A stretch of DNA of 64,000 bases, taken from contig NZ_JACOEA010000002.1 in the NCBI RefSeq assembly GCF_014281125.1, forward strand, positions 317,886 to 381,885. Direction: 5' to 3'. The stretch's first letter is position 1. Each line of letters begins with the position of its first letter. This document shows positions 10,894 to 33,377 of this stretch, one piece after another. The DNA is from Lawsonibacter celer (GTDB lineage Bacteria; Bacillota; Clostridia; Oscillospirales; Oscillospiraceae). The position numbers and the translations under genes are program-made. The notes beneath the pieces were generated by a model that had not been told where the DNA came from, searched no databases, and saw only the letters and a list, made by a program, of their open reading frames with translations.

Positions 10894-10946
10894 TGGTGCG
10901 GGTATGGGGACTCGAACCCCAACGGATCGCTCCACGAGAACCTAAA
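10894..10946 (-). tRNA. tRNA-Leu(UAG), 3' half left by insertion (pseudo)
   Basis: On the minus strand this is the anticodon loop onward of a leucine tRNA: TTTAGGT loop, TCTCG stem strand, variable arm GGA-GCGA-TCC, T arm TGGGG-TTCGAGT-CCCCA, acceptor strand TACCCGC and encoded CCA. The 5' half is missing here; it lies 22.4 kb away at 33339-33377, and the two share the loop bases ACCTAAA (plus strand, 10940-10946). The acceptor strands of the two halves pair perfectly (GCGGGTA/TACCCGC). This marks the left junction of the integrated element. Confidence 0.9.
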
Positions 10947-10951
10947 GGTAA

Positions 10952-10968
10952 TGTAACCTCAGTGAAGG
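10952..10968 (+). repeat. Left terminal inverted arm of the element
   Basis: TGTAACCTCAGTGAAGG, five bases inside the left core. Its counterpart at the right end is the reverse complement with two mismatches. Placement and orientation fit recombinase-binding arms. Confidence 0.75.
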
Positions 10969-10971
10969 GTG

Positions 10972-11946
10972 TCACTTGGGCTCATATCCCCAGGACTTGC
11001 CTATGCGAATCTTCCGAATTATTCCTTCTTCTACCATCTTTGAGAGGATGCGATTTGCGGTAGCCGACGACACCCCGAACATCTCCCGTACATCGGCATT
11101 AGTGATAGTTCCGTTCTTTTTCAAGAAGCGCTCGATTTGATACCAACGCTGTTCCTCTGTACTCATACTTTCTACGCTGCCAGTCTGCACAGCCTCAATT
11201 AGAGCCTCCTTAATGGCAGAAAGCATAAACTCGATAAAAGCGGTGGACTCGGCTTCGTTGTTGGAGCGGTTGATGGCCTGGTAATATTCGTCCTGGCGGT
11301 CATGAATGATGGACTCCACCGGGAGCCAGGTGAACATCGGCTTCCACTGGGTCAGCAACAGGGTATGCCACAGGCGCCCAATACGTCCGTTGCCGTCTGC
11401 GAAGGGGTGAATGAGTTCCAGCTCATAGTGGAACACGCAGCTCTTGATGAGCATATGAAACTCGCTGTCACGTACCCAGTCCAGCAGTTCCATAACCAAT
11501 CCCGGTACATAATCGGGCAACGTGCCGAAATGCAGAACATTGCCCTGCTTGTCCACCACGCCCACAGAACGAGAGCGGAAACAGCCAGACTCTTCCACCA
11601 GACCTCTGGTCATTACTCCGTGGGCGTTCAGCAGATCATCCACAGAAAACGGATCCAGTGAATCCATCATTTCGTAGATCTCATAGGCGTTTTTGACTTC
11701 TGCAATATCCTTGGGCGGCGCTATGACCCGCTTACCGCTGAGAACGGCGGTGACTTGTTCCAGACTTAACGTATTCTGCTCAATGGCCAGAGAAGAATAA
11801 ATCGTCCGGATACGGTTGGTGCGGCGCAGCGTCGGGTTTGTAGACAAGCCCAGCGACGCATTCACATGACCGACCAGCTCGGCAATCTCAGCAACTTCAT
11901 CCAGAATTGCCGTTGTGACCTCAAACGGCGGTTTTTTGTTACGCAT
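10972..11946 (-). CDS. Fic family protein with C-terminal winged helix
   Basis: 324 residues. The Fic active motif HPFADGNGRIGR (about 180-191) is complete, so transfer of AMP from ATP to a target protein is expected. An N-terminal inhibitory-helix motif, SLAIEQN (about 52-58), corresponds to the S/T-x-x-x-E-G/N motif with Gln in the usual Gly place, so self-inhibition is probable. Residues about 275-320 form a winged helix (ITNADVREMFGVSSATANRIL). The ATG at 11946 follows GAGG by eight bases; earlier ATGs at 11952 and 11979 are less well placed. Its promoter contains a large palindrome, suggesting autorepression. It is the first gene inside the left end of the element. Confidence 0.9.
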   Translation of the reverse strand: MRNKKPPFEVTTAILDEVAEIAELVGHVNASLGLSTNPTLRRTNRIRTIYSSLAIEQNTLSLEQVTAVLSGKRVIAPPKDIAEVKNAYEIYEMMDSLDPFSVDDLLNAHGVMTRGLVEESGCFRSRSVGVVDKQGNVLHFGTLPDYVPGLVMELLDWVRDSEFHMLIKSCVFHYELELIHPFADGNGRIGRLWHTLLLTQWKPMFTWLPVESIIHDRQDEYYQAINRSNNEAESTAFIEFMLSAIKEALIEAVQTGSVESMSTEEQRWYQIERFLKKNGTITNADVREMFGVSSATANRILSKMVEEGIIRKIRIGKSWGYEPK

Positions 11947-11964
11947 GGCCATCACCTCATGGTC

Positions 11965-12023
11965 AGTATAACACTTCATCGCTCATTTATCAACACAAGG
12001 TGATTGATGAAATGAGCGATGAA
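11965..12023 (-). promoter_or_regulatory. fic promoter with a 19-base palindromic operator
   Basis: On the minus strand TTGATA (11993-11988) and TATACT (11970-11965) are spaced by 17 bases. The arms TTCATCGCTCATTTATCAA (11975-11993) and TTGATGAAATGAGCGATGAA (12004-12023) form an inverted repeat with a ten-base centre. One arm covers the -35 box and spacer, so a bound protein would block polymerase. Confidence 0.85.
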
Positions 12024-12065
12024 ATAGATTAATGATATTAAATTTCAGCTGACTAAAACGCTATG

Positions 12066-15000
12066 TTACTTTACAAAGAAGCGGTACAGGAAGGTCACCA
12101 TCTGCGCACGAGTGCAGATTTCGTTGGGGCTGAAGGTGGTGCCGTCGCCGGTGCCAAGCGTGATACCGTTCTCCACGGCCCACTGGACAGATTTGGCGTA
12201 ATAGGCATCAGCGCTGACGTCAGTAAAGCCAATTGCGCTGCTTGCAGCCTTGCCTCCTGCCATGCGGCAGAGGAACGCAGCCATCTGCGCACGGGTGCAA
12301 TCCGCTTCGGGGCTGAACGTGGTTTCGGAGGTGCCGTTGGTAATGCCCGTTTCCACGGCCCACAGAACGGCCTTTCCGTAGTAGCTGTCCATATTCACAT
12401 CGGTGAAGGGGCAGACATCTGTAACCGGCTTGGGAGAACCGGAGGCTCGCCACAGGAACGTGACCATCTGCGCACGGGTGCAGGGTGCATTCGGGCTGAA
12501 CGTGGTGGCGCTGGTTCCCTTGGTAACACCAGACTTAACCGCCCACATGACAGCATTGTAGAAGTAGTCGCTTTCCTTCACATCAATGAACGGATTGACC
12601 ATGGGCTGCTCGATCTCGACAAAGGTGCCGGTGACGGTAACCTTGGAGGCGGGCATGGTGAAGGTGTACTTTCCATCTTTCTCAGTGAGCTTCACCTTGT
12701 CGCCGTTCTTGTCAACGACCTTCAGGGTATCCAGCTCATAACCTGTATCGGGTTTGACTGTAATGGTCACGGTCGTGCCCTTGCTTGCAGACTTCGGACT
12801 GACGGAAATAGAGCCGTTATCTGTCTTATCTACGGTAACGCTATAAGTGGCAGGGGTATAACCGCCGCCGGCGGGATTGACGGTGAAGCTCACATCAAAG
12901 CTGGCATTGATGCTGTTGCCGCCGCTGACGGTCACGGTTGCCGTGTAGGTCTTGGCGGAAAGACCGGTGTTGGGTACAACGGTAAAGGTAGCGTTGCCGC
13001 CCACTGCAATGTCGGCAATGTTAGCCGTGCTCAGCGTGAAGCTGGCGGCATCGGTGCCGGAGAGCACCACGGTCAGAGGGCCGGTTGCGCTGTTGCCGGT
13101 GTTGCTTACTGTCACAGTTTTGGCTGCAATCGCGGCATAACCAACAGTCACCGCATCAAAGCTATATGTATTGTTAACATCGAGGTCAATTCCGTAAGTA
13201 GGTACTGCGCTGTAGGCGGGAACATTCACGGTCGCCGCTGCGCCGGCCTTTTGGGTAGCGGTTTCAGCCACACGGACATAGTAGGTGCCATTGGCGAGGT
13301 TGGTGATCTCTGTACCGGTGCAGGTGGTCTTGGAGTTAAAGTTGGAAGTAGTGGAATACTCCATCGCCGTCGTGACACCGGTGATCTTACCATCGTTGTT
13401 GCTGCCGTTTGTGCAGGCGACGGGGGTCACGCTGGGAGCAGCGGGGCCGTCGGCCTTTTCAATGGTCGCAGTGGCGGCGCTGGTGACGCTGCCAGTCTGG
13501 ACGCTGCTGGTCACAGTCACGGTGATGGTACTGTTAATATCGGCCTCAACAATTGTATAGGTCGCGCTGTTTGTGCCAATCTCAGTGTTGCCACGCTTCC
13601 ACTGATAGGACAGGGTACCGGTGTTGTTGGTAATGCCGGAGGTATCCGCAGTCAACTGTGCGTCGAACTTGGCATCGCCGGTAATTTCGACAGTGCCGGT
13701 CAGTTGCGCTACGCCGTAAGCAGCAATGTTGATGGTTTGGGGAATGCCGGCCAGATTGATGCTGCTTGCCTTGTAACGGACATAATAGGTTCCGGGGGTC
13801 AGGCCGGTGACATTACTTCCGTTGCCAGTAGTCCAACTATTAGCTCCGGATTTTTGCCATTCCATCTCGGAAGTTACATTCAAAATAGAGCCGTTGTTAT
13901 TGTTGGAATCAGAACAATTCGTGCTGTACAGGTTGGGAACGCTGTTATTCTTGTCCACGGGGTAGGGATGTGCATCGGAGTCGAGCTTGGTGTTGGTGTC
14001 GGTTGCTTTCTTTACGATATTCAGTGTTCCAGGCACAACATTGGTCAACTCGTGGGTTGTGCCGGATGCCGTAAATTCAGCAGTAGCCGCACCGGTAACG
14101 GAATAGGTCACGCCGTTTTCCAGGTTGCACAGATTGCCGGTATCGGCGCCGGTAGCCTCGAAAGTAACGGTGTTAGGCGTAGCTTCTTTTGTTTTGGCAT
14201 TCGGGCCGAACATGATGCTGACACCGCTGGTCGGTGTGCCGGAAATCGTTACCTGGGTATAGCTGTCTCTCGTTACGGTAACGCCGCTTCCTGCGCCCGA
14301 CACCTGGAGAGGATCGGGGAAATAATAACCGTCATTTGCCGTAACGATGATGTCGGTCATAGCCTGCCCCTGCGCCACATACTGCGTTGTGCTGTAGCTG
14401 CCGGACACACCGCAGACATTCGCAGAAGAGAAATTGACCGTGTGGTAGCTGGCGGGAATATTCTGCCAAAGGGCAGTCACGGTCGTATTGGCAGAAACAG
14501 TGATGGTTTGGCCAGGCTGCAGTTCCTGCCCGTTTACCTGCCAAGCCTTAAACTGCTTGCCGGAAGGTGCTGTAAAAGTACAAGCAGGCAAATGGTAAGT
14601 ACCGCTGGCGCCTGCGACGGAATTCATCGTACCTGTGCCTTCACCAGCAGCAAAGGTGATGGTATAGCCGGAAACAACGGGGAGGTCTTTCCAAAGAGCG
14701 GTCAGAACGATGTTGCCGGTCACGGTAATACTTTCACCGGGGTTCCTTTCTGCTCCGCCGTTTACCTGCCAAGCCTTAAACTCCTTGTTGGCGGGGGCGG
14801 TAAAGGCGCAGGTCGGAAGTTCATAGCTGCCGGAAACATTGTAAACAGAAGCCATCGAGCCGCTGCCGCCGTTTTTATCGAAGCTCACGGTATAGGTCGG
14901 AGCCTCAATGGTGATGGAGAGGCTGGCGGTCTTTTGTTCAAGCACATCGCTGCCATTGCTGCTTACCCAAACATTAACGGATTCATTGTGAGTACCGGCA

Positions 15001-18000
15001 GTGATGTCAGTCTTGGGGGTAAAGGTAAGGGTGTCATAGTTAGCTCCATGCCAGTGTTGCACATAAAAGTTTGTAGGGGTATCATATTTCAGTGTACCTG
15101 TCTTGGTGCCGGTGTACATGATTTTGATGGTCTTGGCGTACTCGTTGTAGCCATCAGTCTTTGCAACACTGCCCCAAGCGAGGCTGTCCTTGTCCATCTC
15201 GAAGGTGTAATCATCGACCCACTGAACGGTAAAGGATTCGCTGTATGTCCAGTTTCCGTCCTCCTGGATACCGATGCGATAAGTACCCGTTGTTTCAGCA
15301 TCCTGTGCGGGAACTACAGCCTGAGTAAAATAGACTTCGGAGGTGCTGATATTATCCCAATCATTCCCATTGTATTTTTGCAGCACCTTGTCGCCATCGT
15401 TTTGTGCATCGCCCTTATCAAAGGCATAGTTCACGGTGTAGGTTGCGTTAATCGCCACTTTGCCGTCAGCCGGCTGTACTGTAAACAGCGGGGTGGCCTT
15501 GTAGGTCACGGTAAATTCATTGCTGTAGAAAGCACTGCCACCGGCCATAGTTGCCTTAATGCGGAATGTCTGAGTGCTGTTGGCATAGCTGTCGTTCCAT
15601 GTGATTTTTCTGTCTGTGGCAGATCCCAATTCATCCCAATTATCACCGTTCTTGCGTTCCAGGTTGGCAGTAGCCGGTGTCTGAACACACGCCCAAGTAT
15701 AGTAATAGTCGGTGCCATTCTTGACGGTGCCGCTGGCAGGAGACATCGAGAAAGTGTTTTGCACAGCAGCCAGCCAAGTCACGGTAAATTCATTACAGTA
15801 AATAGATCCGCTGTTTCCGTAGGTCACGAGGATACGGTAAGTCTTCGTACCGGTTTGTGCAGCAATTGTGCCAGTTGTGTTGCCAACGGTCAAGGTATCA
15901 GCCGTTGCCCAGTCATTGCCACTTTTCACCTGGAGTTCCGCAGCAGTCGGCTGACCGGAAACTCCCCAGGTAAAGTTGTACGGCTCATTTTCGTTCACAG
16001 TGCCGCCCACCGGCTCGGTGGTAAAACCGACATTGTTGCCGCCTGCGGGGAAGTTGATGCAGATATCCACGGTGGTAGCAAGGTTATTCCAGGTATTCGT
16101 GGTTACGCCGACGCCATCAACGATCGCACGATATGTAACACCTGCTCTGACGCCGTGCTGTGCAGTCAGGCTGATGTTGGGAGCGAAGTAATAGCCATCC
16201 TGCAGCTTGACCGTGGTCACAACGGAATAGTCCTTGGAGGTATCGATGGTTTCCGCTCCGGTGACCTGACTGCCGTATGCGTTCAAGCCATTATAGACAG
16301 CATAAACCTTGCTGTTGACAACACCGTCCATATTCACGGCAGAAGAAGCGTTGATGTATTCGATTTCCGTATATCCGTTGACCAGAGCGGAGTTGGGGAT
16401 TTCAATGGCAGTGATAATTTTCTCATTTGCGATATTCGCTGCAGTCCAGCGGTCATAGAGGATGGTATAGCCGTTGAATACGGTATCCTCGGTGACCTTT
16501 TCACCGCCCACTTTCGCGGTGTACCAGCCGTCAAACTTAAGATCAAGATTGTCGGTGCGGTATACCAAAGGCAGCTTCATTGCTTTGCCGTTGCCGAAAA
16601 GATTCACGCGCATAAAGCCGGATTCATCGGTTTCGGCAAAGCAGACGTTGTTGTCCGTGGTCAAAAAGTCGATATAGCCGCCCACCACAGGGGGTATCTT
16701 CTGGAACACAGCGTACAAATACAGCTCTTCGTTGATATTAAAGGTATAAGACGCTGTTGTGGCGACGAAATCCTGAACGTAAGGGGATGCCTTTTTCCAG
16801 CCAAGGAATTCATAGCCGGAAGCTGCAACTGCATTAACGGTTACGGAAGAATTTCTGGTTGCCTTGAGCGACTGCGTAATTGTACCGCTGGCAGTACCTT
16901 TGTCGGTCTGAATGGAAACCGTTCCGCCCACATTATTTTGTCCGTTATTTATTCCGCCGGTGATATCAAAAGGAACACACTCGACCGTGCAGTCAGGGGT
17001 GTACTCGAAAACAGCATACATCCATACTGCTTCGGTAGCGGTAAACTGATACTCTGTGTTGGTAGAAACGGTGGCATTCGCATCAGTCGGAGTACTCTTT
17101 CTCCAGGCGACAAACTGATAGCCAGGCTCTGCAACTGCAATGAGTCTTACGGTTGTGTTTTCGGTTGCGTATTGTTGCTGCGAAGCGGCATAACCGGTAC
17201 CACCTTTATCGGTTTCGAGAAATACCTTTCCGCCTATCTCGTTACTCGAAAGATTGTGAGCAACACAGTTGATTAAATAAGTTGTTGCTTGCGGTTGTGT
17301 TTCCTGGAATACAGCATACAAAAACAGAAGCGGGGGATTTTCGTTAGTATCAACAACGCTCTCTGTCACAGTAAATGTGTAAGTCGCTTCTGTAGAGAAT
17401 GCAGTACTAACATACGGGGAAGACACTTTCCATGCAACAAACTCATATCCCTGTTTCGGCACCGCAGTTATTGTTACAGCAGTATTTTCAGTTGCACTCT
17501 TTGTCGCGCTTTGACCTGCAACGGAAGAGCCTTGATTTGTTTGAATAGATACTGTTCCTCCGTCAGTCGTTGTGTATGTACTATCAAAAATTGCTAACTC
17601 AATATTATATGATGTCGATGATATTGTTTCAAAGACAGCATACAAATACTTGTTTTCGCTTGCAGTAAACTGATAGTTTGCTTCAGTAGAAATCGTTGCT
17701 CCGCTGGTTCCTTGTCTCCATTCCACAAACTTGTAGCCGGTTGCCGGATTGGCATTTAATGTTACAGTAGTACCTTCGGTGGCTGTTTTGATATATCCAT
17801 CGCTTGACCAACCATCGGTACCTTCATCAGTAGTCAGATATACCTGACCGCCAGCTTGGGTTGCGTCAACGGTTGCATCATAAGGATAAGCGCCAATGCT
17901 GTAGGTCACCACAACATATTTCGGACCTTCGGCAGCGTTGCTGTCACGGTAATCCGCTGCTGTCGCAATAACCTCAAACCATCGACCGTCCGCAGCTTCG

Positions 18001-19088: not shown

Positions 19089-19185
19089 AAATGTTTCCCT
19101 CCTTGTTTTCCATAGAGTTTTCTTCAATCACTTCTGTTCAGAAGGCACTTTTATGCCGGTTGGGAAGTTCTTTCTTCTCATCGGC

Positions 19186-20025: not shown

Positions 20026-20234
20026 GGGTACCCCATTCTTGTTTTTGTGAACGGCAAGGCTTATACCCTCCTTGATGTTCCCTTGCGGCTATCATTATAC
20101 GGATTTCCCCGATTTTGTCCCCTACCCAAACCCCCAAAAGGTAGGGATGGGAGCAAAAAAATTTGAAAATTTTCTTGATTTTCATTGGTTTTCGGGGAGA
20201 GAGCCATGCAACCCAACGAAGGAGGAACAAATCC

Positions 20235-21563
20235 ATGAAACGATCTCTCACACTTTTGCTTGCTGCACTGCTCACTCTGTGCGGTCTGACCGGCTGCGCT
20301 GAAAAGACGGCGCTTGACCCGAAGGAACCGGTCACGCTGACTCTGTGGCATGTCTATGGCGAACAGGCCGACTCCCCGATGAACCGGCTGGTGGAGGAAT
20401 TCAATTCCACGGTGGGTCAGGAGAAGGGCATCATCGTGACCGTCACCAATGTGTCCAGCAGCTCCAAGATCACAGCGCAGCTGCAGGAGGCAATGTCCGG
20501 AAAACCCGGCGCACCGGAAATGCCCGATCTGTTCTCCGGCAACTCCAGCACCGTAGCTGAACTGGGAGCCGACAATCTGCTGGACTGGAATACATATTTC
20601 AGCAAGGACGAGCTGGCGAGCTATGTACCGGAATTTCTGAATGACGGAACGATGGACGGAAAGCTGATGGTCTTTCCTGTGTCCAAGTCCACTTACGCAC
20701 TGTTTTTGAACGGCTCCCAGTTTGAGCGGTTTTCCGCCGATACCGGAGTGACCTATGACACCCTTTCCACCTGGGAAGGCTTCTTTGATGCCGCCGCCAG
20801 GTATTATGACTGGTCTGACGGCAAGCCTTTCTGCGCCTTTGACTACCTGATCCGCCATATCGAATTTGATGTCATGGCCAGTGGCGATGATCTGGAGTAC
20901 ACCGAGAACGGCTGGTACAACACCGAAAGTCCGGCCATCCAGCGCTCCTGGACGAAATTTGCCCAGCCGCTGGTGCAGGGGCATATCGCCATTTCGGATC
21001 AGTATTCCAACACCCAGGTCATGACCGGTGAAACCCTGTCCGGCATCGGCTCCACCGCTGCGATCATTTATTACAACGATACCGTCACCTATCCCGACAA
21101 CACCTCGGAGCCGATGAATCTGAAGGTGCTGCCCCTGCCCAGGACCGGCGAAGGCGAACAGTTTATGCCCATGACCGGCGTGGGTCTTTGCGCATATCAG
21201 ACCACCGAGCAGAAGGGCGAAGCCGCCGCTGTTTTTGTGCGCTGGCTGACCGAGGGTGAGCGCAATCTGGCCTTTGTTGCGGAAACGGGATATATGCCCG
21301 TGAACAACGATGCCTTTGCCGCGATTGAGAACTATGATTTTCCGGATGCGGGATACGCCAGTCTGTTTGACGCCATCAAGACCATGCGGGAAGGCTATAC
21401 CCCCGTGGTACGCCCCACGTTTAGCGGATACTATGATAAAATTGACGCACTGTACGGCGGGCTGCGGCAGATGATGCCTGCGCTGCGGGAGCGCAGCGCC
21501 AATGGCGAGAGCGTTGATGCGCTGGCAAAAGAAACCTGGGATTTCTTCTGCTCGATTCAGTAA
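20235..21563 (+). CDS. Extracellular solute-binding lipoprotein
   Basis: 442 residues with a lipoprotein signal (MKRSLTLLLAALLTLCGLTG, lipobox Cys at 21) and the bacterial type 1 binding fold used by sugar importers (VTLTLWHVYGEQADSPMN at the mature start; MPMTGVGLCAYQTT and EAAAVFVRWLT near the C-terminus). The ATG at 20235 has GAAGGAGG upstream; an open extension to 20163 is rejected. No permease or ATPase gene follows. Instead the next gene encodes a membrane-bound LuxR-type regulator, so this protein may hand its ligand to a sensor rather than to a transporter. Ligand unknown. Confidence 0.88.
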   Translation: MKRSLTLLLAALLTLCGLTGCAEKTALDPKEPVTLTLWHVYGEQADSPMNRLVEEFNSTVGQEKGIIVTVTNVSSSSKITAQLQEAMSGKPGAPEMPDLFSGNSSTVAELGADNLLDWNTYFSKDELASYVPEFLNDGTMDGKLMVFPVSKSTYALFLNGSQFERFSADTGVTYDTLSTWEGFFDAAARYYDWSDGKPFCAFDYLIRHIEFDVMASGDDLEYTENGWYNTESPAIQRSWTKFAQPLVQGHIAISDQYSNTQVMTGETLSGIGSTAAIIYYNDTVTYPDNTSEPMNLKVLPLPRTGEGEQFMPMTGVGLCAYQTTEQKGEAAAVFVRWLTEGERNLAFVAETGYMPVNNDAFAAIENYDFPDAGYASLFDAIKTMREGYTPVVRPTFSGYYDKIDALYGGLRQMMPALRERSANGESVDALAKETWDFFCSIQ

Positions 21564-25290: not shown

Positions 25291-26271
25291 ATGAACAATG
25301 AACTCAAACTCATTTCCATGGACACCGTGGAAACTGAAACTGTCCAGTGGCTGTGGTATCCCTACATTCCGCTGGGCAAGATCACCATCGTCCAGGGTGA
25401 TCCCGGTGAGGGAAAAACCACGTTCGCTCTCGCTGTCATTGCGGCGCTGACGAAGGGAGAACCTCTCCCAGAATGTGAAGATGCCATGGAGCCCATGAAC
25501 GTGATCTATCAGACTGCCGAGGACGGTCTGGCAGATACCATTAAGCCAAGGCTCGTTGCATCCGGTGCCGACTGCTCCCGCGTTCTGGTGATTGATGAAA
25601 CCAACAAAGAACTCACCCTTATTGATGAGCGGCTGGAATCCGCCATCAATGAAACCGGCGCTCGGCTCATCGTCCTCGATCCGATCCAGGCATATCTCGG
25701 TGATGATGTGGACATGCACCGTGCCAACGAAGTGCGTCCGGTGCTGAAGCGTGTTGCAGCCATGGCAGAGCGCACGCATTGTGCTGTCCTACTGGTTGGT
25801 CACATGAACAAAGCGCAGGGACAGAAATCCAGCTACCGCGGTCTCGGCTCCATCGACTTCCGCGCGGCGGCGCGAAGTGTGCTGGTAGTCGGTCGGCTGA
25901 AAGACAACGAGCGCATCCGTATTGTCGCTCAGGACAAAAACAGTCTCGCTCCCGAGGGCAGCTCCATTGCATTCGAACTGAATGAGCAGACCGGCTTCTG
26001 CTGGAAGGGTGCCTGCGACGCGACTGTGGACGATGTTCTCAACGGCACCGGTAAGATACAGACAAAGACCATGCTGATGGAGGAAGAACTCAAGCGTATG
26101 CTCAGCGGCAGAGTTCCCGCAGAGGAAGTGCAGAAACGAGCCAAGAGCATGGGTGTGTCCAAGCGCACGTTGGATATCGCGAAGAAAAATCTCGGTATCA
26201 TTTCCGAAAAGGTTGGCGACCAGTGGTTCTGGAAACTACCGGAGGAAGGATGTAAGGATGTAGAGTTCTAA
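25291..26271 (+). CDS. AAA/RecA-like ATPase (RepA-type helicase domain)
   Basis: 326 residues of the AAA_25 / RepA hexameric-helicase type found in replication or mobilization cassettes. Walker A is GDPGEGKTTFA (about 36-46), Walker B RLIVLDPIQAYLG, and the sensor region is LLVGHMNKAQG followed by SSYRGLGSIDFRAAARSV. A C-terminal winged-helix part (about 255-315, VQKRAKSMGVSKRTLDIAKK) may bind DNA. It precedes mobC and the relaxase, so it probably serves replication or processing of the excised element. AGGAGG gives a clear start. Confidence 0.85.
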   Translation: MNNELKLISMDTVETETVQWLWYPYIPLGKITIVQGDPGEGKTTFALAVIAALTKGEPLPECEDAMEPMNVIYQTAEDGLADTIKPRLVASGADCSRVLVIDETNKELTLIDERLESAINETGARLIVLDPIQAYLGDDVDMHRANEVRPVLKRVAAMAERTHCAVLLVGHMNKAQGQKSSYRGLGSIDFRAAARSVLVVGRLKDNERIRIVAQDKNSLAPEGSSIAFELNEQTGFCWKGACDATVDDVLNGTGKIQTKTMLMEEELKRMLSGRVPAEEVQKRAKSMGVSKRTLDIAKKNLGIISEKVGDQWFWKLPEEGCKDVEF

Positions 26272-26681
26272 GGACATTGCACCCTTGCAACCTTTTCCCT
26301 CTGCGCTGAAATCTCCGCCGTGTGCGCCCACAGGAGCGGCTGTGTGCGGCTTTTGCTGCAGGGAAGAGTAACACCCCACAGCAGGGCAGTCAGCAGTTTT
26401 GACACCCATGTTCGGCAAAAAGGAGGCGGAACGGAGACGAGGGAATTTTCTCCCATAACAGGGCTCCCGCCGAAGCCCAGCGACAGCGGGTTCGGTGGGA
26501 AGAGGACGAGCGACAGAGAGTACGAGCCTTACCGCTTGCGGGGAGGCGAGGGATTCGTCGTCCGCTCGGACGACGGCCAGCATCGCGTTTGTCTGGTCTG
26601 CGGCAATGCCGCTGTCTGGCTTCCGCATGTTGGCGGGGCGTTGCCCCACACCCCATTCTTGCGAAATTTGGAGGAATCATC
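26272..26681. promoter_or_regulatory. Probable origin of transfer upstream of mobC
   Basis: 410 bases with no supported gene between the ATPase and mobC, the place where mobilizable elements keep oriT. The end of it holds GGGGC-GTT-GCCCC (26635-26647) followed by ACACCCC, a hairpin-plus-C-rich arrangement common beside MOBP-type nick sites, 35 bases before mobC. Other short inverted repeats (CGTCGTCCG / CGGACGACG near 26557-26575) lie inside. Nick site not proven. Confidence 0.45.
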
Positions 26682-26996
26682 ATGAAAAAGAAAGATATCA
26701 AATTCAGCACCAGGATGGCTGTAGAAGACCGTACTACTATCAAAGCGTTGGCAAAGCAGGCTCATATGTCCATGAGCAACTATGTTACCGCCTGCTGTCT
26801 TGGTCAGCAGATCGTCATCATCGAAGGGCTGAAGGAAGTACTGAAAGAGCTCAAGGCCATCGGCAATAACCTCAACCAGCTGGTAACGCTGGCGCACATG
26901 GGCAAAATCACCGTGATCAATCTCACTGAGGTGCGTCAGCTCCTCACTGACATCCTCATCGCCGTCCGTGAGATCGCGGAACGAAAGCGATGGTGA
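26682..26996 (+). CDS. mobC: Mobilization protein MobC (ribbon-helix-helix relaxosome component)
   Basis: 104 residues. The N-terminus (IKFSTRMAVEDRTTIKALAK) is a ribbon-helix-helix-like DNA-binding segment, and the C-terminal half carries the MobC pattern LKELKAIGNNLNQLVTLAH. It binds near oriT and helps the relaxase open the DNA. The ATG at 26682 follows GGAGG; an extension to 26589 would run through the presumed oriT. It overlaps the relaxase start by a few bases. Confidence 0.88.
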   Translation: MKKKDIKFSTRMAVEDRTTIKALAKQAHMSMSNYVTACCLGQQIVIIEGLKEVLKELKAIGNNLNQLVTLAHMGKITVINLTEVRQLLTDILIAVREIAERKRW

Positions 26997-28396
26997 CCAT
27001 GGCAATCATAAGCTTCACAAATTACAAACGTGGTCAGACCCGTGGGGGCATGGGAGCGGTGCTGCGATACACCGCTCAGGACTGGAAGACGGAGTTCAAC
27101 GGTCGGCAGTTGGTCACAGGAATCAACTGTCAACCGGAAACGGTCTGCGGAGATTTCATGACTACGAAGTATCTGCACCACAAAACCGATGGCACGATGT
27201 TCTATCACATGGTGCAGAGCTTCTCGAAGGGGGCTGATGTCGATCCTGCGGTTGCACATTCGGCGGCACAAAAGCTGGCAGAGTACTTTGCCGGTCATGA
27301 AGTTTTAGTCTGTACGCATACCGACCGTGAGCATATCCACTCACACTTCATCATCAACTCGGTCAGCTTCGACACCGGCAAGAAACTACACATCGCAAAG
27401 GAACAGCTCCAGGAACTGCGCCAGCGAAACGATGCGGTGTGCATGGAGTTCTCACTGCCGGTGTTCGTTCCGAACCCCAACCGACAGAAGTCCAAGCACA
27501 TGACCATCGGAGAGTATCATACTGCCGCCCGTGGTCAGAGCAAGAAACTGCAGCTCATGAATATCATCAATGACTGTATGCGCCATGCTGCCAACCGCGA
27601 AGAGTTCATCGCTCTGATGGAAAGCGAAGGCTGCAAAGTCCGCTGGGAAAAGTCCCGGCAAAACATCACCTACACCACACCGAGCGGCTGGCAGTGTCGT
27701 GACCGCCTGCTGTTTGGTGACAAATACTTAAAGGAGAATATGGAACATGAATTTGAGATCCGAGCAGAACTTATCCATGGACGAGCTCATGGAGAGAAAT
27801 CGTCACCCGCATATACGACAGATGGATCCGGAACAGACCACACCGCCGATGCCGTCCGAGCCGCAAGTACAGGAGCATCATGTGGTGGTCAACTGGACGA
27901 TGCCCGAGTCGATGGACCGCATCGAGAACCGGTTACAGACGCTGGAGGAGCAGAGCAACTTGCAGCGGGCGTACCTGCGCAGACTGTGCGAGAGGTCGAC
28001 TACATACCCGACGCAGGCGCAGATGGACGAACTGCTGAAGGCGGTGAAGCATTTGGAGCAGATGACCGAACAGGTTGGGAAACCGAAAGAGAAGCGTTTC
28101 TCTCTTCCGAAGTTCAGACTGCCCAGGCTGCAACTGCATCTCCCGGAGTGGGACTGGCCGACAGTGGTCACGGTGGCAATGGCGCTGGCTATGGCGGCGT
28201 TGCTTCTGCTCTGGTTCAAGTCGGGCGGCGGCTGGAACAATCTCAGTCTGCTGCGCCGGTGATGGACAGCACCACCATGCGTCACCACACCGACAGCAAA
28301 ACGCTCCGTAAGGAGCGTGAAAAGAAAATCGCCCTCGGGCATAAATCAGATGACCACGAGGACGAAGAAACCTATACTTGGCAACAGACCATGTGA
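26990..28396 (+). CDS. Relaxase/mobilization nuclease (MOBP type)
   Basis: 468 residues. The N-terminal relaxase domain has the nucleophile region near the start (ISFTNYKRGQTRGGMGAVLR, with Tyr), and the three-histidine metal site in HTDREHIHSHFIINS (about 110-124). It nicks oriT and pilots the strand into a recipient cell. The start is either ATG 26990 (overlapping mobC) or ATG 26999; neither has a strong ribosome site, which fits coupling to mobC. The C-terminal 220 residues are low-complexity, but end in a family-like tail (KEREKKIALGHKSDDHED). A second gene is nested out of frame in this region. Confidence 0.85.
   Translation: MVTMAIISFTNYKRGQTRGGMGAVLRYTAQDWKTEFNGRQLVTGINCQPETVCGDFMTTKYLHHKTDGTMFYHMVQSFSKGADVDPAVAHSAAQKLAEYFAGHEVLVCTHTDREHIHSHFIINSVSFDTGKKLHIAKEQLQELRQRNDAVCMEFSLPVFVPNPNRQKSKHMTIGEYHTAARGQSKKLQLMNIINDCMRHAANREEFIALMESEGCKVRWEKSRQNITYTTPSGWQCRDRLLFGDKYLKENMEHEFEIRAELIHGRAHGEKSSPAYTTDGSGTDHTADAVRAASTGASCGGQLDDARVDGPHREPVTDAGGAEQLAAGVPAQTVREVDYIPDAGADGRTAEGGEAFGADDRTGWETEREAFLSSEVQTAQAATASPGVGLADSGHGGNGAGYGGVASALVQVGRRLEQSQSAAPVMDSTTMRHHTDSKTLRKEREKKIALGHKSDDHEDEETYTWQQTM
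27747..28262 (+). CDS. Membrane protein nested out of frame in the relaxase gene (MobB-like position)
   Basis: 171 residues wholly inside the relaxase reading frame, one frame over. It has AAAGGAG ten bases before its ATG, a coherent design (charged N-terminus, coiled-coil MDRIENRLQTLEEQSNLQRA at about 55-74 and another at about 90-108, basic linker, one membrane helix TVVTVAMALAMAALLLLWF near 140-158) and no stop. The coding quality of this frame looks better than that of the relaxase tail it overlaps. ColE1-type plasmids likewise nest the membrane protein MobB inside the relaxase gene. Similar role inferred from position and layout, not from sequence identity. Confidence 0.7.
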   Translation: MNLRSEQNLSMDELMERNRHPHIRQMDPEQTTPPMPSEPQVQEHHVVVNWTMPESMDRIENRLQTLEEQSNLQRAYLRRLCERSTTYPTQAQMDELLKAVKHLEQMTEQVGKPKEKRFSLPKFRLPRLQLHLPEWDWPTVVTVAMALAMAALLLLWFKSGGGWNNLSLLRR

Positions 28397-28430
28397 CGGT
28401 CTGCTGTCTTCACTTTCCAAGGAGGTACAA

Positions 28431-28619
28431 ATGACCTATAAAAAGCGCAACAACATTTCCGAAGTCAGCTTCACCTATGTGGGAACCGACGCTCAGTTCA
28501 ACGAGTTCCTGAAAATGATGATTCATGATTATCTGGCGGTGGACAATCCCTACGCGATGAAAGAAACCGAAGCCGTGGAAATCGCCGAAGAGGATCAGAA
28601 GCGTCAGCAAGCCATGTGA
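28431..28619 (+). CDS. Small conserved-looking protein between relaxase and recombinases
   Basis: 62 residues from an ATG with CAAGGAGG eight bases upstream; open extension to 28317 overlaps the relaxase and is not needed. Acidic, helical (FNEFLKMMIHDYLAVDNPY), no cysteine or membrane segment. Genes of this size and place occur in mobilizable elements of Clostridia next to serine recombinases. No function can be assigned. Confidence 0.65.
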   Translation: MTYKKRNNISEVSFTYVGTDAQFNEFLKMMIHDYLAVDNPYAMKETEAVEIAEEDQKRQQAM

Positions 28620-28771
28620 ACTATAGGTGTTCTGCACACAAATCTCAGGGCATGTCCTGTTGCTTAGGTAGAACTTCTGCGCCGTGGGATTGTTCTGTTC
28701 GCTATTGAAAAACGTGTGTGCTATGGTGTGTCGTGAATAATCCGGCACACCATAGCAGAAAGGAGAAGGCC

Positions 28772-30430
28772 ATGAAAGTCTGGCTGTATTATCGACTGTC
28801 ACGAGATGAAGACGAAGAGCTGAACTCGCTGACAAACCAGAGAAAAATCATCTGTGAATATGCGCTGGCCAACGGTCACGAAATCGTCGGCGAGTCCTCC
28901 GATGACAACGTCAGCGGCATGCACTTCAACCGTGAGGGCATCAACAAAATCTACGAAGCGGTGGAAGCTGGCATCATCGAAGCCATCATCGTCAAAGACC
29001 TATCCCGCCTGGGCCGCCATCGCACGCAGACGGCACTGTTCATCGATTATCTGCGCGAACACAACGTGCGAGTGCTCTCCGCCACAGAGAGTATCGATAC
29101 CTTCAACGAGAACGACGACCTCATCATCGGATTCAAGGGATTGGTCAATGACTTCTACGCCCGCGACGGCAGCCGCCGTGTCCGCACAGGTTATCGGCAG
29201 AAGCAGAAAGAAGGTCTGGTGGCTATCCCGCCCTTTGGATACTTCAAGGATAAAAACACGAAGAAAGTCGTTATCGTGGAGGAAGCTGCTGAAACCGTTC
29301 GCCTGATCTATACCGAGTACGTTGGCGGCAGAGGGCTCAAAGCCATTGCCAGAATGCTCAATGAGCAGAAACGCAAAACACCGGCGCTGATGCAGCTGGA
29401 GCTGCTGAACAAAAAGCAGCCCTGTACCTTTGACGGTATCAAGAAGAAACATATCTGGGACGCCACCATGGTGAGCCGCATCCTTCAGGACGAGAGCTAC
29501 ATCGGCACGCTCATCTGCCATAAGAGCGACACCAACAAAATCAATAAGACCTTCCGCCTCACCGAGCCGGAGGAGCAGTTCCGTCACGAGGATTTCTTCC
29601 CGGCCATCGTCAGCCGTGACCTGTGGGAGCAGGTGCAGGAACTGAAGGCGGCACGCAAAGAAAAGAATGTCCGCGCCGGTGCCGACAAAAAGGTGCATCG
29701 GTACAGTGGCCTGCTCCAATGTCAGGACTGCGGGCGCTCCTTTCTCGGTAAACGCATCAAGCTAAAAGACAGAGAGCGGGTCGAGTATGTCTGCGATACC
29801 TACCACCGCTACGGCAAGGAGCACTGTACCGCCCATGCGGTGCGGGAGGAAACACTGGACGAGCTCATTATCAAAGAACTGGGCGAAACCAAGGCTATGT
29901 ACCAAATGAACTGGGATATGCTTGAGAAGGTCATTGAAAAATGGACGCCCAAGGCATCTTTCGCCGATGCTCAGATATCCAAGCTCCGTGACCGCATCGC
30001 CGGTCTGGAAGAAGATGTGGAGGTGATCCTGATGGAGCGTATTCGGGACAAAGCCAACGCCGAGCGCTATGACCGCATGCTTGAAAAGCGTGAAGCGGAG
30101 ATTGCGGCGGCGAAAAAGCAGATTGAGGAGCTGCAAAATATCTCTGAGGTGCTTCGGAGCCGTCAGGCCAAGCTGAAAAAGGATATCAGCCTTATTGATG
30201 AAATTCTCAAGGAAGGTAAGATGACCGAAGCACACCTGCGGCTTCTGGTGGACAAGATCCTGGTCCATGAGCATGACGGCAAAATCGACCTGGACATCCG
30301 CATCAAGGCGCCGTTCCGCGGTCACACCGACTACTATGAGAATGGCGAGTTGGTAGAGCGCTATGGCGATCTGGACTTCGATTGGGACAGATTGGCCGCT
30401 GCCATCTACGGCGATTACGCGGAGAAGTGA
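28772..30430 (+). CDS. Large serine recombinase 1
   Basis: 552 residues. The resolvase domain (1-150) has the nucleophile Ser10 in YYRLSRDEDE and the arginine motif KDLSRLGRHRTQT. It is followed by the recombinase domain (about 165-290, PPFGYFKDKN and ILQDESYIGTL), a zinc ribbon (CQDCGRSFLG then VCDTYHRYGKEHCTAH, about 325-375) and a long coiled coil (about 400-480) that large serine integrases use to control direction. The ATG at 28772 follows AAAGGAGAAGG. The second recombinase starts one base after its stop, so the pair are co-translated. Such enzymes excise and integrate mobilizable elements. Confidence 0.95.
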   Translation: MKVWLYYRLSRDEDEELNSLTNQRKIICEYALANGHEIVGESSDDNVSGMHFNREGINKIYEAVEAGIIEAIIVKDLSRLGRHRTQTALFIDYLREHNVRVLSATESIDTFNENDDLIIGFKGLVNDFYARDGSRRVRTGYRQKQKEGLVAIPPFGYFKDKNTKKVVIVEEAAETVRLIYTEYVGGRGLKAIARMLNEQKRKTPALMQLELLNKKQPCTFDGIKKKHIWDATMVSRILQDESYIGTLICHKSDTNKINKTFRLTEPEEQFRHEDFFPAIVSRDLWEQVQELKAARKEKNVRAGADKKVHRYSGLLQCQDCGRSFLGKRIKLKDRERVEYVCDTYHRYGKEHCTAHAVREETLDELIIKELGETKAMYQMNWDMLEKVIEKWTPKASFADAQISKLRDRIAGLEEDVEVILMERIRDKANAERYDRMLEKREAEIAAAKKQIEELQNISEVLRSRQAKLKKDISLIDEILKEGKMTEAHLRLLVDKILVHEHDGKIDLDIRIKAPFRGHTDYYENGELVERYGDLDFDWDRLAAAIYGDYAEK

Positions 30431-30431
30431 T

Positions 30432-31730
30432 ATGCGGGTGTGGCTTTACGCAAGACTGTCCAACGACGATGATCGGAAGATGAACTCCCTGCTCAATCAG
30501 CAGGAGATCTGCCGTGCCTATGCGGAAAAGCATGGGCATACCGTCGTTGGCAGTTCCTTCGATGATAATGTCAGCGGCATGAAATTCAGCCGCCGTGGGC
30601 TGGACGAACTCACGGCGGCTGTGGATGCGAAAAGCATAGATGCGGTTATCGTGAAAGACCTCTCCCGACTGGGACGGCACAAAACGCAGACAGGGCTGCT
30701 CATCGACTACCTGCGGCAATGTCGGGTGCGGGTGCTGTCGGTGACGGAGGGTATTGACACCTTCTGCGATGAAGATGACCTTATCATCGGTGTGCGCGGC
30801 CTGATGAACGATTTCTATGCCAGGGACATCGGCAATAAAATCCGTGCGGGATACCGGCAGAAGCAGCGGGAAGGCATTGTGATCACGCCGCCCTTCGGCT
30901 ACTGGAAGGATAAGAACAGGAACGAAATCCGAATCAATTCCGAAGCGGCGGTCACGGTGCAAATCATCTATTCTCTGTACTTACAGGGCTGTGGGCAGAA
31001 AGAAATCGCCCGCCGGCTCAATGCCATGGGGCGAAAGACCCCGGCGCAGCTCCGAGCCGAGAAATGCGGCATAGAGTTTCAGCCGACGCACAAAACCCGT
31101 GATGGGCAGTTCCTCTGGACATATGCCAGCGTGAAAAATGTGCTGGTGGAGGAGGCTTACACAGGTGTGTTGAACAACCATCGCAGTGAAACCACCAGCG
31201 GTAAAGTCAAACGGCTTGCCTCCGACAACTGGTATCGCCATGAAAACTTCTTCCCGGTCATCATAGAGCGGGAAGAATGGGAGCAGGTGCAGGAACTTTT
31301 GAGAATGCAAGCTCGACCTGCCAATGGGAATCAGGCCAAGCACCGCTATGCGGGACTGCTGACCTGCTGGGAATGCGGCAATGTGTTTATCCCTATGATT
31401 CGGTACTGGAACGGCAAGCGCCGTGTGGAATATGTCTGCCGTGGGTATCATCGCAATGGCAAAAGCTATTGCACCTCCCACCGTATCCATGAAGAGGTGC
31501 TGGACGCAGCTGTGCAGACCTATGTGGAATCCATACGTGAACAGTATGCCGTAGAACTGAAACAACTTGTGAAGATGCAAAAAATGTGGGCGTTGAGGAA
31601 GGCAATCCTCGACGCCCACATTTTGTCGTTGCAGGAGAAAGTGCAGGGGCTGGAACATGAGATAGATGCGATTGTGATGGAACACGTTCGGGCTTTATCA
31701 AACATTAATCTCAAAGCAAATGGCGTCTGA
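30432..31730 (+). CDS. Large serine recombinase 2, C-terminally truncated
   Basis: 432 residues, clearly a paralog of the previous gene (MRVWLYARLSNDDDRKMNSL with Ser10; KDLSRLGRHKTQT; PPFGYWKDKN; zinc ribbon CWECGNVF with VCRGYHRNGKSYCTSH). It stops about 120 residues short of its neighbour, early in the coiled coil (VQGLEHEIDAIVMEHVRALS), and its last 11 codons overlap the end of the convergent cargo gene, whose base composition is much poorer in G+C. The 3' end was probably replaced by that cargo segment. Catalytic residues are intact, but loss of the coiled coil may affect control of direction or make it depend on its neighbour. Confidence 0.9.
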   Translation: MRVWLYARLSNDDDRKMNSLLNQQEICRAYAEKHGHTVVGSSFDDNVSGMKFSRRGLDELTAAVDAKSIDAVIVKDLSRLGRHKTQTGLLIDYLRQCRVRVLSVTEGIDTFCDEDDLIIGVRGLMNDFYARDIGNKIRAGYRQKQREGIVITPPFGYWKDKNRNEIRINSEAAVTVQIIYSLYLQGCGQKEIARRLNAMGRKTPAQLRAEKCGIEFQPTHKTRDGQFLWTYASVKNVLVEEAYTGVLNNHRSETTSGKVKRLASDNWYRHENFFPVIIEREEWEQVQELLRMQARPANGNQAKHRYAGLLTCWECGNVFIPMIRYWNGKRRVEYVCRGYHRNGKSYCTSHRIHEEVLDAAVQTYVESIREQYAVELKQLVKMQKMWALRKAILDAHILSLQEKVQGLEHEIDAIVMEHVRALSNINLKANGV

Positions 31731-32747
31731 TCCAAATGGACGCCGAGTATATCGCTTATATTCAGTTTTGATTGGTTCAAATACTTCTTGTGGATTTCTG
31801 CTATATACTGTATTTGCAATATCTTCTGCAAAATGAATTTTTGATCCAGTTGCCAAAACATATAACGTATCTACGAGCTTTTCATCAATTGCCTTCTGAG
31901 CGATTTCAACTGGTGCCTGGATATCGGAATAGGCAAAATCAGAAATTGCCAAAATAACTTTCACATTTATCCCATTTTCACGGAAAGTTAGTTTTGTGTC
32001 ATCTCCCAATGTATGAGATGCAATTCCGTAAATAAAATCCATAAAATGAACAATTGTCTTAAAGACTTCGTCGGACGGTGGCGCAGGAAAAACTCTGCTT
32101 GCGTATTTATCTATCTCGTTAAATAGGACAGGGAGAAACAAACCATCTTTATCAATTTTTCTCAGTTTGTCAAACACCGCGACAAATGTTTTATCCGTCT
32201 TCAATTGCTCTGGAATGTATTCGCGATTAAAGTAATCATAAATATTGCGGCCAGCATATTGAGCTAACTTTTGTGTTACTATTAAGTCTGATGATTTGCA
32301 AACACTTGCAGGCATATATGTCTTTGCGTTTTGGCCAAAGCCTTTCGCACAATAATTATGTAATATACCTACGGCTTGTTTGACTTCGTCCTTATATGAA
32401 TTAACATATACTACCACTTGATTATCTTCAAAAAACGAATCCGTTGTTTCGGCCTCAGACACCCATTCCACCTTCAAATCATAAGGAAGAAATTTTTTCA
32501 ACGCTGGTGGTGCAGATTCGTCAAATTTGAGTTTTGCAGCATCAATTGTCATGCATAAGCGCTTTTCAAAAGCTTTCTTTCTTTTCTTAGGTGCAAACGC
32601 TGCAATCCACACAGTTATCTGTGTGTTCCACTCCCTTACAGTTTGTGGGTGGGAAAGAAGCCATAGGATCACAACGATAGCACCAATCAGAAGTGTCCAT
32701 GAAAGTCCTTTGTCAATAAATTGGCTCACAACATCCCAGAATGTCAT
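31698..32747 (-). CDS. Unrecognised membrane-anchored protein
   Basis: 349 residues with one membrane helix near the N-terminus (about 13-32, LSWTLLIGAIVVILWLLSHP) and a soluble domain of about 310 residues inside the cell. The soluble part has a helical central region (about 165-240) and a C-terminal region with SDLIVTQKLAQYAGRNIYDY and KVILAISDFAYSDI segments, but no motif I recognise. It is markedly AT-richer than its neighbours, a sign of separate transfer. Its start codon directly follows the stop of the small cysteine protein gene (TAAATG), so the two form an operon between the recombinases and the replacement tRNA, a usual place for defence or exclusion cargo. Function not assigned. 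Confidence 0.65.
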   Translation of the reverse strand: MTFWDVVSQFIDKGLSWTLLIGAIVVILWLLSHPQTVREWNTQITVWIAAFAPKKRKKAFEKRLCMTIDAAKLKFDESAPPALKKFLPYDLKVEWVSEAETTDSFFEDNQVVVYVNSYKDEVKQAVGILHNYCAKGFGQNAKTYMPASVCKSSDLIVTQKLAQYAGRNIYDYFNREYIPEQLKTDKTFVAVFDKLRKIDKDGLFLPVLFNEIDKYASRVFPAPPSDEVFKTIVHFMDFIYGIASHTLGDDTKLTFRENGINVKVILAISDFAYSDIQAPVEIAQKAIDEKLVDTLYVLATGSKIHFAEDIANTVYSRNPQEVFEPIKTEYKRYTRRPFGSDAICFEINV

Positions 32748-32981
32748 TTATTTCGCCTCCTCAGAGAGAGATAGCACACAGTCTGGCCTGTTGCAACACA
32801 TATCAACGTTTTTATCCGGCATAGGAATAATCGCATAGAGATTGTTTCTTGTAATAACTTCTTTGCAATATTTGCAAGTGAACTTGCCTTGATTAAACTG
32901 TTCGAGGACTTCAAGTTTGGCCAAAAAAGTATCAATGTCTGATGAGTACACCGCTTTTAAGTGATCGTCTTTTGTAAGCAT
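32748..32981 (-). CDS. Small CxxC protein, partner of the membrane protein
   Basis: 77 residues from ATG 32981 (GGTGG upstream); an in-frame ATG ten codons earlier is also possible. A four-cysteine cluster, CKYCKEVITRNNLYAI then CCNRPDC, suggests a zinc finger. The stop is immediately followed by the ATG of the membrane protein, so expression is coupled. It is AT-rich, like its partner. No family recognised. Confidence 0.6.
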   Translation of the reverse strand: MLTKDDHLKAVYSSDIDTFLAKLEVLEQFNQGKFTCKYCKEVITRNNLYAIIPMPDKNVDMCCNRPDCVLSLSEEAK

Positions 32982-33141
32982 AAATCCACCATGTCCTTTC
33001 GTCGTTATCACCCCCCATAAAACGGAATTTATACTTGAGGGGAGTATAACATAATTTGTTGCACGATTTTGTCAAACTCTATACATAAATTCTTGTTATA
33101 TTCTATACTATTTTTCAAGTTTTGACAACATACTCATAAGT

Positions 33142-33175
33142 AAAGACGCTGTCGGAACAAACCAACAGCGTCTTT
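33142..33175 (-). terminator. Terminator after the replacement tRNA-Leu
   Basis: AAAGACGCTGT / ACAGCGTCTTT stem (11 bp) with a 12-base loop directly at the 3' end of the tRNA on the minus strand, followed by TACTTATG. The T run is short. Confidence 0.75.
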
Positions 33176-33260
33176 GGTGCGGGCGGCGGGACTCGAACCC
33201 GCACACCACTGAGGTAACGGAACCTAAATCCGTCGAGTCTACCAATTCCACCACGCCCGC
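33175..33260 (-). tRNA. tRNA-Leu(UAG), intact copy carried by the element
   Basis: 86 bases with encoded CCA. Acceptor GCGGGCG/CGCCCGC, anticodon stem ACGGA/TCCGT with loop TTTAGGT (anticodon TAG at the third to fifth loop bases), variable arm ACC-TCAGT-GGT, T arm GCGGG-TTCGAGT-CCCGC all pair. The D stem GTG/CTC has one T-T mismatch. It lies 78 bases inside the right core of the element and reads the same codon as the tRNA gene the element broke, but differs from it in every stem. Confidence 0.95.
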
Positions 33261-33269
33261 ATATATAAG

Positions 33270-33296
33270 TCGGTGCCAGGCACCGGCTGTTTTTTA
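33270..33296 (+). terminator. Hairpin with T run between core and replacement tRNA
   Basis: CGGTGCC-A-GGCACCG followed by GCTGTTTTTT on the plus strand. It would stop plus-strand transcription leaving the element, while on the minus strand (toward the tRNA) it lacks a T run. Confidence 0.6.
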
Positions 33297-33319
33297 TGAT
33301 AATTGTACGCCCTGAAAAT

Positions 33320-33336
33320 CCTTCACTAAGGTGACA
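33320..33336 (-). repeat. Right terminal inverted arm of the element
   Basis: On the minus strand TGTCACCTTAGTGAAGG, two bases inside the right core, matching the left arm at 15 of 17 positions in inverted orientation. Confidence 0.75.
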
Positions 33337-33338
33337 CG

Positions 33339-33377
33339 ACCTAAATCTCGCATGTCTACCAATTCCATCATACCCGC
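33339..33377 (-). tRNA. tRNA-Leu(UAG), 5' half left by insertion (pseudo)
   Basis: On the minus strand: acceptor strand GCGGGTA, D arm ATG..CAT with GGAATTGGTAGA loop, anticodon stem strand CGAGA and loop TTTAGGT, then element sequence. It joins with 10894-10946 at the loop to give an 85-base tRNA in which acceptor, D, anticodon, variable and T stems all pair without mismatch. It marks the right junction of the element. Confidence 0.9.

Follow-up and report, generated by a model that had tools for sequence, protein, structure and literature searches.

Insertion into a tRNA gene that is not rebuilt, with the element supplying a tRNA in its place, has its closest described counterpart in the tRNA-dependent lysogeny of actinobacteriophages, for which the same logic has been proven with tyrosine integrases (Guerrero-Bustamante and Hatfull 2024, PMC10865867). 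According to the sections of that paper available to us, several tRNA isotypes are used, and how common tRNA-dependent lysogeny is elsewhere is raised as a question. The same sections describe the Lactobacillus johnsonii prophage Lj965, in which the tRNA is not rebuilt and the cognate tRNA is encoded. Mobilizable elements with site-specific serine recombinases are described as using dispensable target genes (PMC5704250, in the part available), and gene disruption is described for streptococcal mobilizable elements (PMC5357655, likewise). In a partial set of literature, consisting mostly of titles and abstract openings, we found no description of a replacement tRNA on an element that is non-phage or uses a serine recombinase. 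The word tRNA is absent from the main text, as available, of a survey of large serine recombinases (LSRs; PMC10083194).

In the window, the 64,000-nucleotide stretch of DNA analyzed here, a 22-kb element is seated in a leucine tRNA gene, which is cut at the anticodon. The reading favored here, with a probability of roughly 0.86, is that an LSR-borne mobilizable element broke the host tRNA-Leu(UAG) gene at the anticodon loop and that its own tRNA likely replaces that of the host. It is also probable that such LSR elements in Clostridia use a self-renewing site, where the host's only tRNA-Leu for that anticodon is broken and replaced serially and the 5' halves record the invasions.

The split tRNA gene and the element within it

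The features of the locus are as follows.

10894..10946, minus strand: 3' half of the host tRNA-Leu(UAG) gene, at attL (ARAGORN reads the rejoined gene)
10940..10946, no strand: att core ACCTAAA, left copy (anticodon loop)
10947..10968, plus strand: left attP arm, inverted repeat of the right arm
10972..11979, minus strand: Fic-domain protein at the left end, cargo
12066..19127, minus strand: 2353-aa surface protein with InlB-type repeats and SLH domains, cargo
20163..21563, plus strand: extracellular solute-binding protein, cargo
21579..23282, plus strand: protein with a LuxR-type DNA-binding domain, cargo
25291..26271, plus strand: AAA_25 ATPase
26589..26996, plus strand: NikA/MobC-like accessory mobilization protein
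26990..28396, plus strand: MobA/VirD2-type relaxase (PF03432)
28772..30430, plus strand: large serine recombinase 1 (LSR1), 552 aa; the ORF runs from 28718, with a conserved start at 28772
30363..31730, plus strand: large serine recombinase 2 (LSR2), 455 aa, a paralogue of LSR1
31698..32747, minus strand: 349-aa protein, no Pfam or PHROG match
33175..33260, minus strand: carried complete tRNA-Leu(UAG) with encoded CCA, followed by a terminator-like hairpin (by eye)
33271..33285, minus strand: hairpin just upstream of the carried tRNA, terminator-like, with a weak T tail
33317..33338, plus strand: right attP arm
33339..33345, no strand: att core ACCTAAA, right copy
33339..33377, minus strand: 5' half of the host tRNA-Leu(UAG) gene, at attR (ARAGORN on the rejoined site)
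33393..33421, minus strand: sigma-70-type promoter-like host site TTGACT-17-TAAAAT, upstream of the broken 5' half (consensus match)
33489..34334, plus strand: flanking host gene, used as the marker for the same site in kin

A preliminary description of this DNA had proposed that a tRNA-Leu(UAG) gene is split at the anticodon loop, and ARAGORN confirmed this. When 10940-33338 was removed (10939 joined to 33339), the halves, which share ACCTAAA, rejoined as an 85-nt tRNA-Leu(tag) with every stem paired. This 7-bp core was the longest word common to the 150-bp stretches around the two junctions. Across the unrejoined junctions, ARAGORN detected no tRNA at 10500-11300 and only the carried tRNA at 33000-33800. 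The rebuilt host gene was absent from both junctions, which bears out the further proposal that the insertion breaks its target rather than rebuilding it. Rejoined halves also gave tRNA-Leu(tag) in 5/5 family split loci tried (the window and G001-G004), and in G774. The recurrence of the same split with the same ends in other genomes indicates that the arrangement is not due to chance.

The predicted 51-bp attP was self-complementary at 38 positions, and none of 10,000 shuffles was as good. Inverted-repeat ends around a core are as expected for the attP of a serine recombinase. The commonest form of the left arm among relatives was GGTGATGTCACCTTAGTGA.

Both LSRs carry resolvase/recombinase domains, and neither reached the cut-off of any NCBIfam model. 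The XisF model scored highest (90 for LSR1 and 100 for LSR2, cut-off 375), and the best Ccr models were CcrB for LSR1 (85 bits, cut-off 900) and CcrA for LSR2 (86, cut-off 700). A PHROGs scan of 10 element proteins gave no phage structural family, and there was no conjugation ATPase among the element proteins scanned, a subset of the ORFs. From the two LSRs, the relaxase and the MobC-like protein, the element is predicted to be an integrative mobilizable element. Viral contigs yielded four LSR2 matches at 26-29% identity and no confirmed LSR1 match, and phage records yielded three LSR1 matches, all below 30% identity; matches this distant fit a non-phage element. Plasmid records contained seven LSR1 matches, one at 54.6% (Subdoligranulum) and six at 26-31%. 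A tyrosine integrase at 8636-9478 lies outside the element.

Intact sites, scars and stacked halves in related genomes

The same site in kin was located through the flanking gene at 33489-34334, which we take to be pyridoxal-kinase-like, and 28 of 79 fetched loci were scanned for tRNAs. These were assigned to Flavonifractor, Pseudoflavonifractor, Intestinimonas, Oscillibacter or, more broadly, Oscillospiraceae, Clostridiales, Eubacteriales and Clostridia; the best protein match was 73%, to an uncultured Flavonifractor, which points to a relative as the most likely source of the window. The uninterrupted tRNA that the preliminary description expected in related genomes was found beside the same flanking gene at 14/28 loci, as a contiguous tRNA-Leu(UAG) whose position and orientation agree with the window and beside which no extra half was detected. 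At five further loci, a complete tRNA-Leu(UAG) stood behind one to three extra 5' halves. The other nine had no tRNA-Leu at this position; among their contigs, two stop at the loop core and one stops amid extra halves. The genomes of L002 and L018, with contigs that stop at the core, yielded no scar.

Close homologs of LSR2 (67-74% identity), each beside a 46-48% paralogue, were present in 4/17 kin genomes; all four carry additional 5' halves, and each has a 3' half at the distal side. Additional halves also occur in G005 and G006, where no LSR2 homolog exceeded 36% identity; in G006, an attL with the 3' half is retained on another contig. The recombinase pair was found in 6 of 300 drawn family genomes, including the four already found, and in G325 the pair is present with a more distant LSR2 (54%).

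A search pattern for the element ends, which holds no tRNA content beyond part of the loop, matched in 19/400 family genomes, and the reversed-pattern control matched in none. All 22 attR-type matches were preceded by a tRNA-Leu 5' half, and all seven attL-type matches abutted a 3' half, one of them diverged. Of the 16 genomes with attR, 14 contain, no more than about 1 kb from a scar, a complete tRNA-Leu(UAG) encoded on the same strand; the contigs of the remaining two, G133 and G184, stop 73-110 bp from the scar. In G256, G082, G263, G348, G174 and G087, no recombinase pair above 35% identity was found in the 12-40 kb fetched, and G087 retains an 83-aa LSR2 fragment beside the tRNA.

The number of broken 5' halves per site was three in G002 and G047, two in G001, G186 (one diverged), G082, G087 and the L008 contig, and one in the window, G003, G004 and L019 (mutated in L019). 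One unit of G002, consisting of leader and 5' half, matched the corresponding part of the G001 locus, where the carried tRNA is complete, at 165/166 nt; in G002, the end of the next element truncates this unit at the anticodon. The match marks the unit as a carried tRNA that itself became a target. G001 and G002 have two and three 5' halves, respectively, but a single 3' half each, with which all of these 5' halves pair; no 3' half was found in the 55 kb of G047 and 25 kb of G186 read. With so few 3' halves, stacking requires later deletion or cross-excision. From the pairing of all 5' halves with one 3' half, we infer that nested element bodies were lost via recombination between element copies or between unlike att sites.

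Alternatively, the stacked halves might have arisen by local tandem duplication of the leader-plus-half unit instead of successive integrations. This would account for the single 3' half per locus in G001 and G002, the identity of the halves within each of these loci, and the same 173-bp spacing of two G002 units. Against it, these two units match at only 190/211 nt, while one of them matches the G001 element end at 165/166 nt over leader and 5' half. The leaders in G001 are also unequal (80 and 128 nt), 763 nt separate the outermost two halves of G002, and the halves of G047 have different acceptor stems. Tandem duplication is therefore considered unlikely, and successive integration is the preferred origin of the stacks.

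Probable replacement of the host tRNA

The divergent intact tRNA-Leu(UAG) reported 78 bp inside the right end was confirmed by ARAGORN as an 86-nt tRNA-Leu(tag) on the same strand as the host gene. The anticodon stems of the carried and host tRNAs differ, and their 7-nt anticodon loops are identical.

To count tRNA-Leu(UAG) genes, a covariance model of these tRNAs was run on six scarred genomes, two of which (G142, 2.9 Mb, and G174, 3.7 Mb) consist of one contig each. Scoring covered the best 150 candidates per genome, and ARAGORN was used to type every match that reached 69 bits (35 in total). Among these candidates, each of the six genomes had exactly one complete tRNA-Leu(UAG), located behind the broken half; the CAG, GAG, UAA and CAA isoacceptors were also present in all six. 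The copy number in the host of the window is inferred from these kin and would be the same. A loop-to-T-arm pattern applied to 17 and then 15 genomes agreed on the whole with a single copy. The surplus pattern matches checked, which leave out G325 C45 and G184 C36, were 3' halves or non-tRNAs: ARAGORN rejected the third G002 match and the second G014 match as tRNAs, and the second G345 match was rejected as a complete gene, being a partial copy. The 84-nt tRNA-Leu(UAG) of G325 was overlooked by the pattern and found by ARAGORN. The pattern found no complete tRNA-Leu(UAG) in the scarred genomes G006, G133, G147 and G184. The missing tRNA is attributed to assembly gaps, since the scars of G006, G133 and G184 are at contig ends and G147 has the attL side only.

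Among 345 genomes drawn from the order and 391 drawn from the class, relatives of LSR1 at 40-54% identity were found at 16 places besides G001 and G004. A complete tRNA-Leu was present in the stretch fetched at 14 of these places (11 CAG and 3 UAG); of the other two recombinases, one lies on a contig of 3,991 bp and the other has 117 bp left to the contig end. At 13/16 places, the tRNA-Leu was within 1.5 kb, whereas none of 22 control loci of less related LSRs in kin genomes had a tRNA over that distance or as far as the contig reached. G001 and G004 themselves have the tRNA more than 1.5 kb from the LSR genes. A broken 5' half lay upstream at 12 of the 14 places with a tRNA-Leu, that of G677 at 6.6 kb; G432 and G883 have an LSR and a tRNA but no upstream 5' half. 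The CAG anticodon is gone from the upstream halves of G911, G871 C9 and G677, and from two of the three in G543. The carried isoacceptor follows the target, UAG at UAG targets and CAG at CAG targets; G871 has one locus of each type.

In G774, one LSR, two small ORFs and a tRNA occupy a 2.6-kb interval whose flanking halves rejoin as tRNA-Leu(tag), which suggests that the minimal module may be a recombinase and a tRNA. The tRNAs of G992, G871 and G774 are identical and the host 5' halves differ, indicating that the tRNA travels with the element. An ML tree placed the LSR1 group, the LSR2 group and seven order-level LSR1 relatives in one clade (100/100) against six other LSRs; the order-level relatives grouped weakly (80/21), with a long-branch warning from the tool.

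Record OY725838.1 (Subdoligranulum variabile, labelled plasmid), of which bases 1-100000 of 109843 were examined, contains a 39-kb CAG version with both halves, which rejoin as tRNA-Leu(cag). Its LSR1 homolog had been a candidate for a recombinase lacking a tRNA, with none within 12 kb; this was rejected when a CAG tRNA, a broken 5' half and a 3' half 39 kb off were found. The record supports the reading of tRNA replacement.

If the host had another tRNA-Leu(UAG), or if another isoacceptor read CUA, the carried tRNA could be a mere passenger. CUA codons are indeed rare, at 0 to 4 per gene in the eight genes counted. The single complete copy in the six scarred genomes argues against this, as do the match between carried isoacceptor and target and the persistence of the tRNA at sites whose fetched sequence showed no recombinase pair. 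Moreover, E. coli leuW (UAG) is in an essential transcription unit and is predicted to be essential, according to the available part of PMC11480407. A passenger role is accordingly given only a slim chance. A role as a shield against anticodon nucleases, as suggested for phage tRNAs (PMC10865867, in the sections available), instead of the mending of the insertion is highly improbable, because in the window the host gene and the carried tRNA share the anticodon loop, and the isoacceptor tracks the target. That the halves are joined in trans or spliced and still yield the host tRNA can practically be dismissed: their rejoined stems pair perfectly, but 22 kb of DNA separates them, both junctions carry element ends, a complete tRNA of this anticodon exists alongside, and we know of nothing of the kind in bacteria.

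Compensation by a whole replacement gene, as originally proposed, is supported as the best reading of these comparisons by the contiguous tRNA in kin, the sole copy in 6/6 scarred genomes and the agreement of isoacceptor and target. The accompanying proposal that the host depends on the element held in part. Precise excision would restore the host gene, so the thing that cannot be lost is the carried tRNA; six genomes retain the tRNA with no pair visible in the sequence fetched.

Under the replacement reading, LSR1 and LSR2 would join attP to the anticodon stem-loop and insert the element. The host tRNA gene would die, and the host promoter-like site would stay upstream of the carried tRNA, whose expression could depend on read-through from that site or on a promoter belonging to the tRNA itself. 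Measurements at seven family loci placed the carried tRNA 79 to 477 bp downstream of the broken loop, with both on one strand. In the window, no promoter-like match was found on the tRNA's strand between the broken half and the carried tRNA. Terminator-like hairpins lie in this gap and in the leaders of relatives, which makes read-through uncertain. By eye, promoter-like sequences similar to that of the host site are upstream of the outermost half in G001-G004 and L019, extended -10-like sequences occur in some leaders (G001 and G186), and G677 has a strong promoter-like sequence immediately before the tRNA. The gap hairpins speak against simple read-through. A CTCC.CCTCGG...CCG.GTAAAAAT..GAGG-like motif was common to 14/20 leaders. 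Consensus folding of the leaders gave three invariant pairs and no covariation, with one leader misaligned, and no RNA structure is therefore claimed; in a comparison of eight loci with Rfam, only the tRNA family was above the cut-off.

Each insertion would kill one target and bring a fresh hittable tRNA, and the site would thereby renew itself. Successive elements would leave a stack of 5' halves between the host promoter and the newest tRNA, and the carried tRNA would outlast a decayed element because translation needs it.

Comparison with known systems

If this reading is correct, it would extend tRNA-dependent integration from tyrosine-integrase phages to serine-recombinase elements in Clostridia. 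It would provide a way for a nonredundant tRNA gene to be a safe target, a reason for a mobile element to keep a tRNA, and a natural record of successive insertions at one site. A core tRNA gene would be open to horizontal replacement, and the LSRs would come supplied with a predicted attB (the tRNA anticodon stem-loop) and paired attP sites.

The adjacent LSR pair, of about 450 and 550 aa, resembles CcrA/CcrB of SCCmec; Ccr proteins act as a pair. The two LSRs differ from them in scoring far below the NCBIfam cut-offs and in their target.

As described in the available parts of PMC5704250 and PMC5357655, Tn4451 and the streptococcal IMEs are likewise mobilizable, with a serine recombinase, very short direct repeats and a disrupted target. 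In contrast to the dispensable targets of serine IMEs, an essential-type tRNA is hit and replaced here. Classical tRNA islands also target a tRNA gene, but, according to the available part of the Islander report (PMC4383910), they use tyrosine integrases and island sequence restores the gene, whereas there is no restoration here. Prophage Lj965, compared by description only, shares the unrebuilt target and the cognate tRNA but is a prophage.

The likeness to tRNA-dependent lysogeny, as presented in the available sections of PMC10865867, lies in the short att core (7 bp here), the unreconstructed target tRNA gene and the lack of any other supply of the disrupted tRNA (here, in six scarred kin genomes). 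The differences are two LSRs instead of a tyrosine integrase, a relaxase and MobC with no phage structural family in the 10 proteins scanned instead of a temperate phage, and hosts among the Clostridia instead of the Actinobacteria. This family is further set apart by its stacks of broken halves and by tRNAs with no recombinase pair in view. Since recombinase and element type differ, the element is not a member of tRNA-dependent lysogeny as defined. Judged from its predicted genes and sites, it is an apparent LSR-based, non-phage, serially stacking variant of the same logic, and the serial stacking and the use on two isoacceptors are its surprising parts.

Cargo and size of the elements

In the window, the gene of an SLH-domain repeat protein accounts for nearly one third of the element's length. 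Features of the window considered here are as follows.

8636-9478, tyrosine recombinase gene, about 1.4 kb beyond the left end of the element, adjoined by a manganese-catalase-like gene
12066-19127, SLH-domain repeat protein, 2353 aa, within the element
44229-44324, tRNA-SeC (tca), predicted by ARAGORN, outside the element

Because a tRNA-SeC was predicted, selenocysteine is probably in use by the host.

In the related genome G142, which is a single contig, the two halves of the target tRNA, the broken 5' one and the 3' one, enclose a vanG-type gene cluster (L242:1029-7502). The cluster comprises a VanR-type regulator, a sensor kinase, a VanG ligase, a VanXY-like protein and the catalytic part of VanT. 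The NCBIfam cut-offs were reached by the VanG, VanT and VanR models; the VanXY model scored below its cut-off.

A 39-kb element splits a tRNA-Leu(CAG) locus at 16507-55841 of the circular record OY725838.1, whose label reads plasmid 4 of Subdoligranulum variabile. The correctness of this plasmid label may be worth verifying. A minimal element, in G774 (L260), is 2.6 kb long and bounded by two tRNA halves. Besides one large serine recombinase (LSR) it contains a tRNA-Leu(UAG) and two small ORFs, of 67 and 121 aa. In G186 (L139:4424-6081), LSR1 is split over two ORFs, and LSR2 is one continuous ORF.

Leaders of the carried tRNAs

A motif resembling CTCC.CCTCGG...CCG.GTAAAAAT..GAGG was common to 14 of the 20 leaders compared, from elements targeting tRNA-Leu(UAG) and tRNA-Leu(CAG) alike, for example L253:8485-8609, G774 (L260), G001 and G004. 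It was absent from the window's own leader.

Contig ends at the target site

Three MAG contigs (L002:1, L018:1 and L270:1-39) break off precisely at the loop core or where a 5' half ends. The genomes of L002 and L018 were searched for the scar, and none was found. Such breaks would be expected of a sample in which the site is present in both occupied and empty, or in differing, versions.
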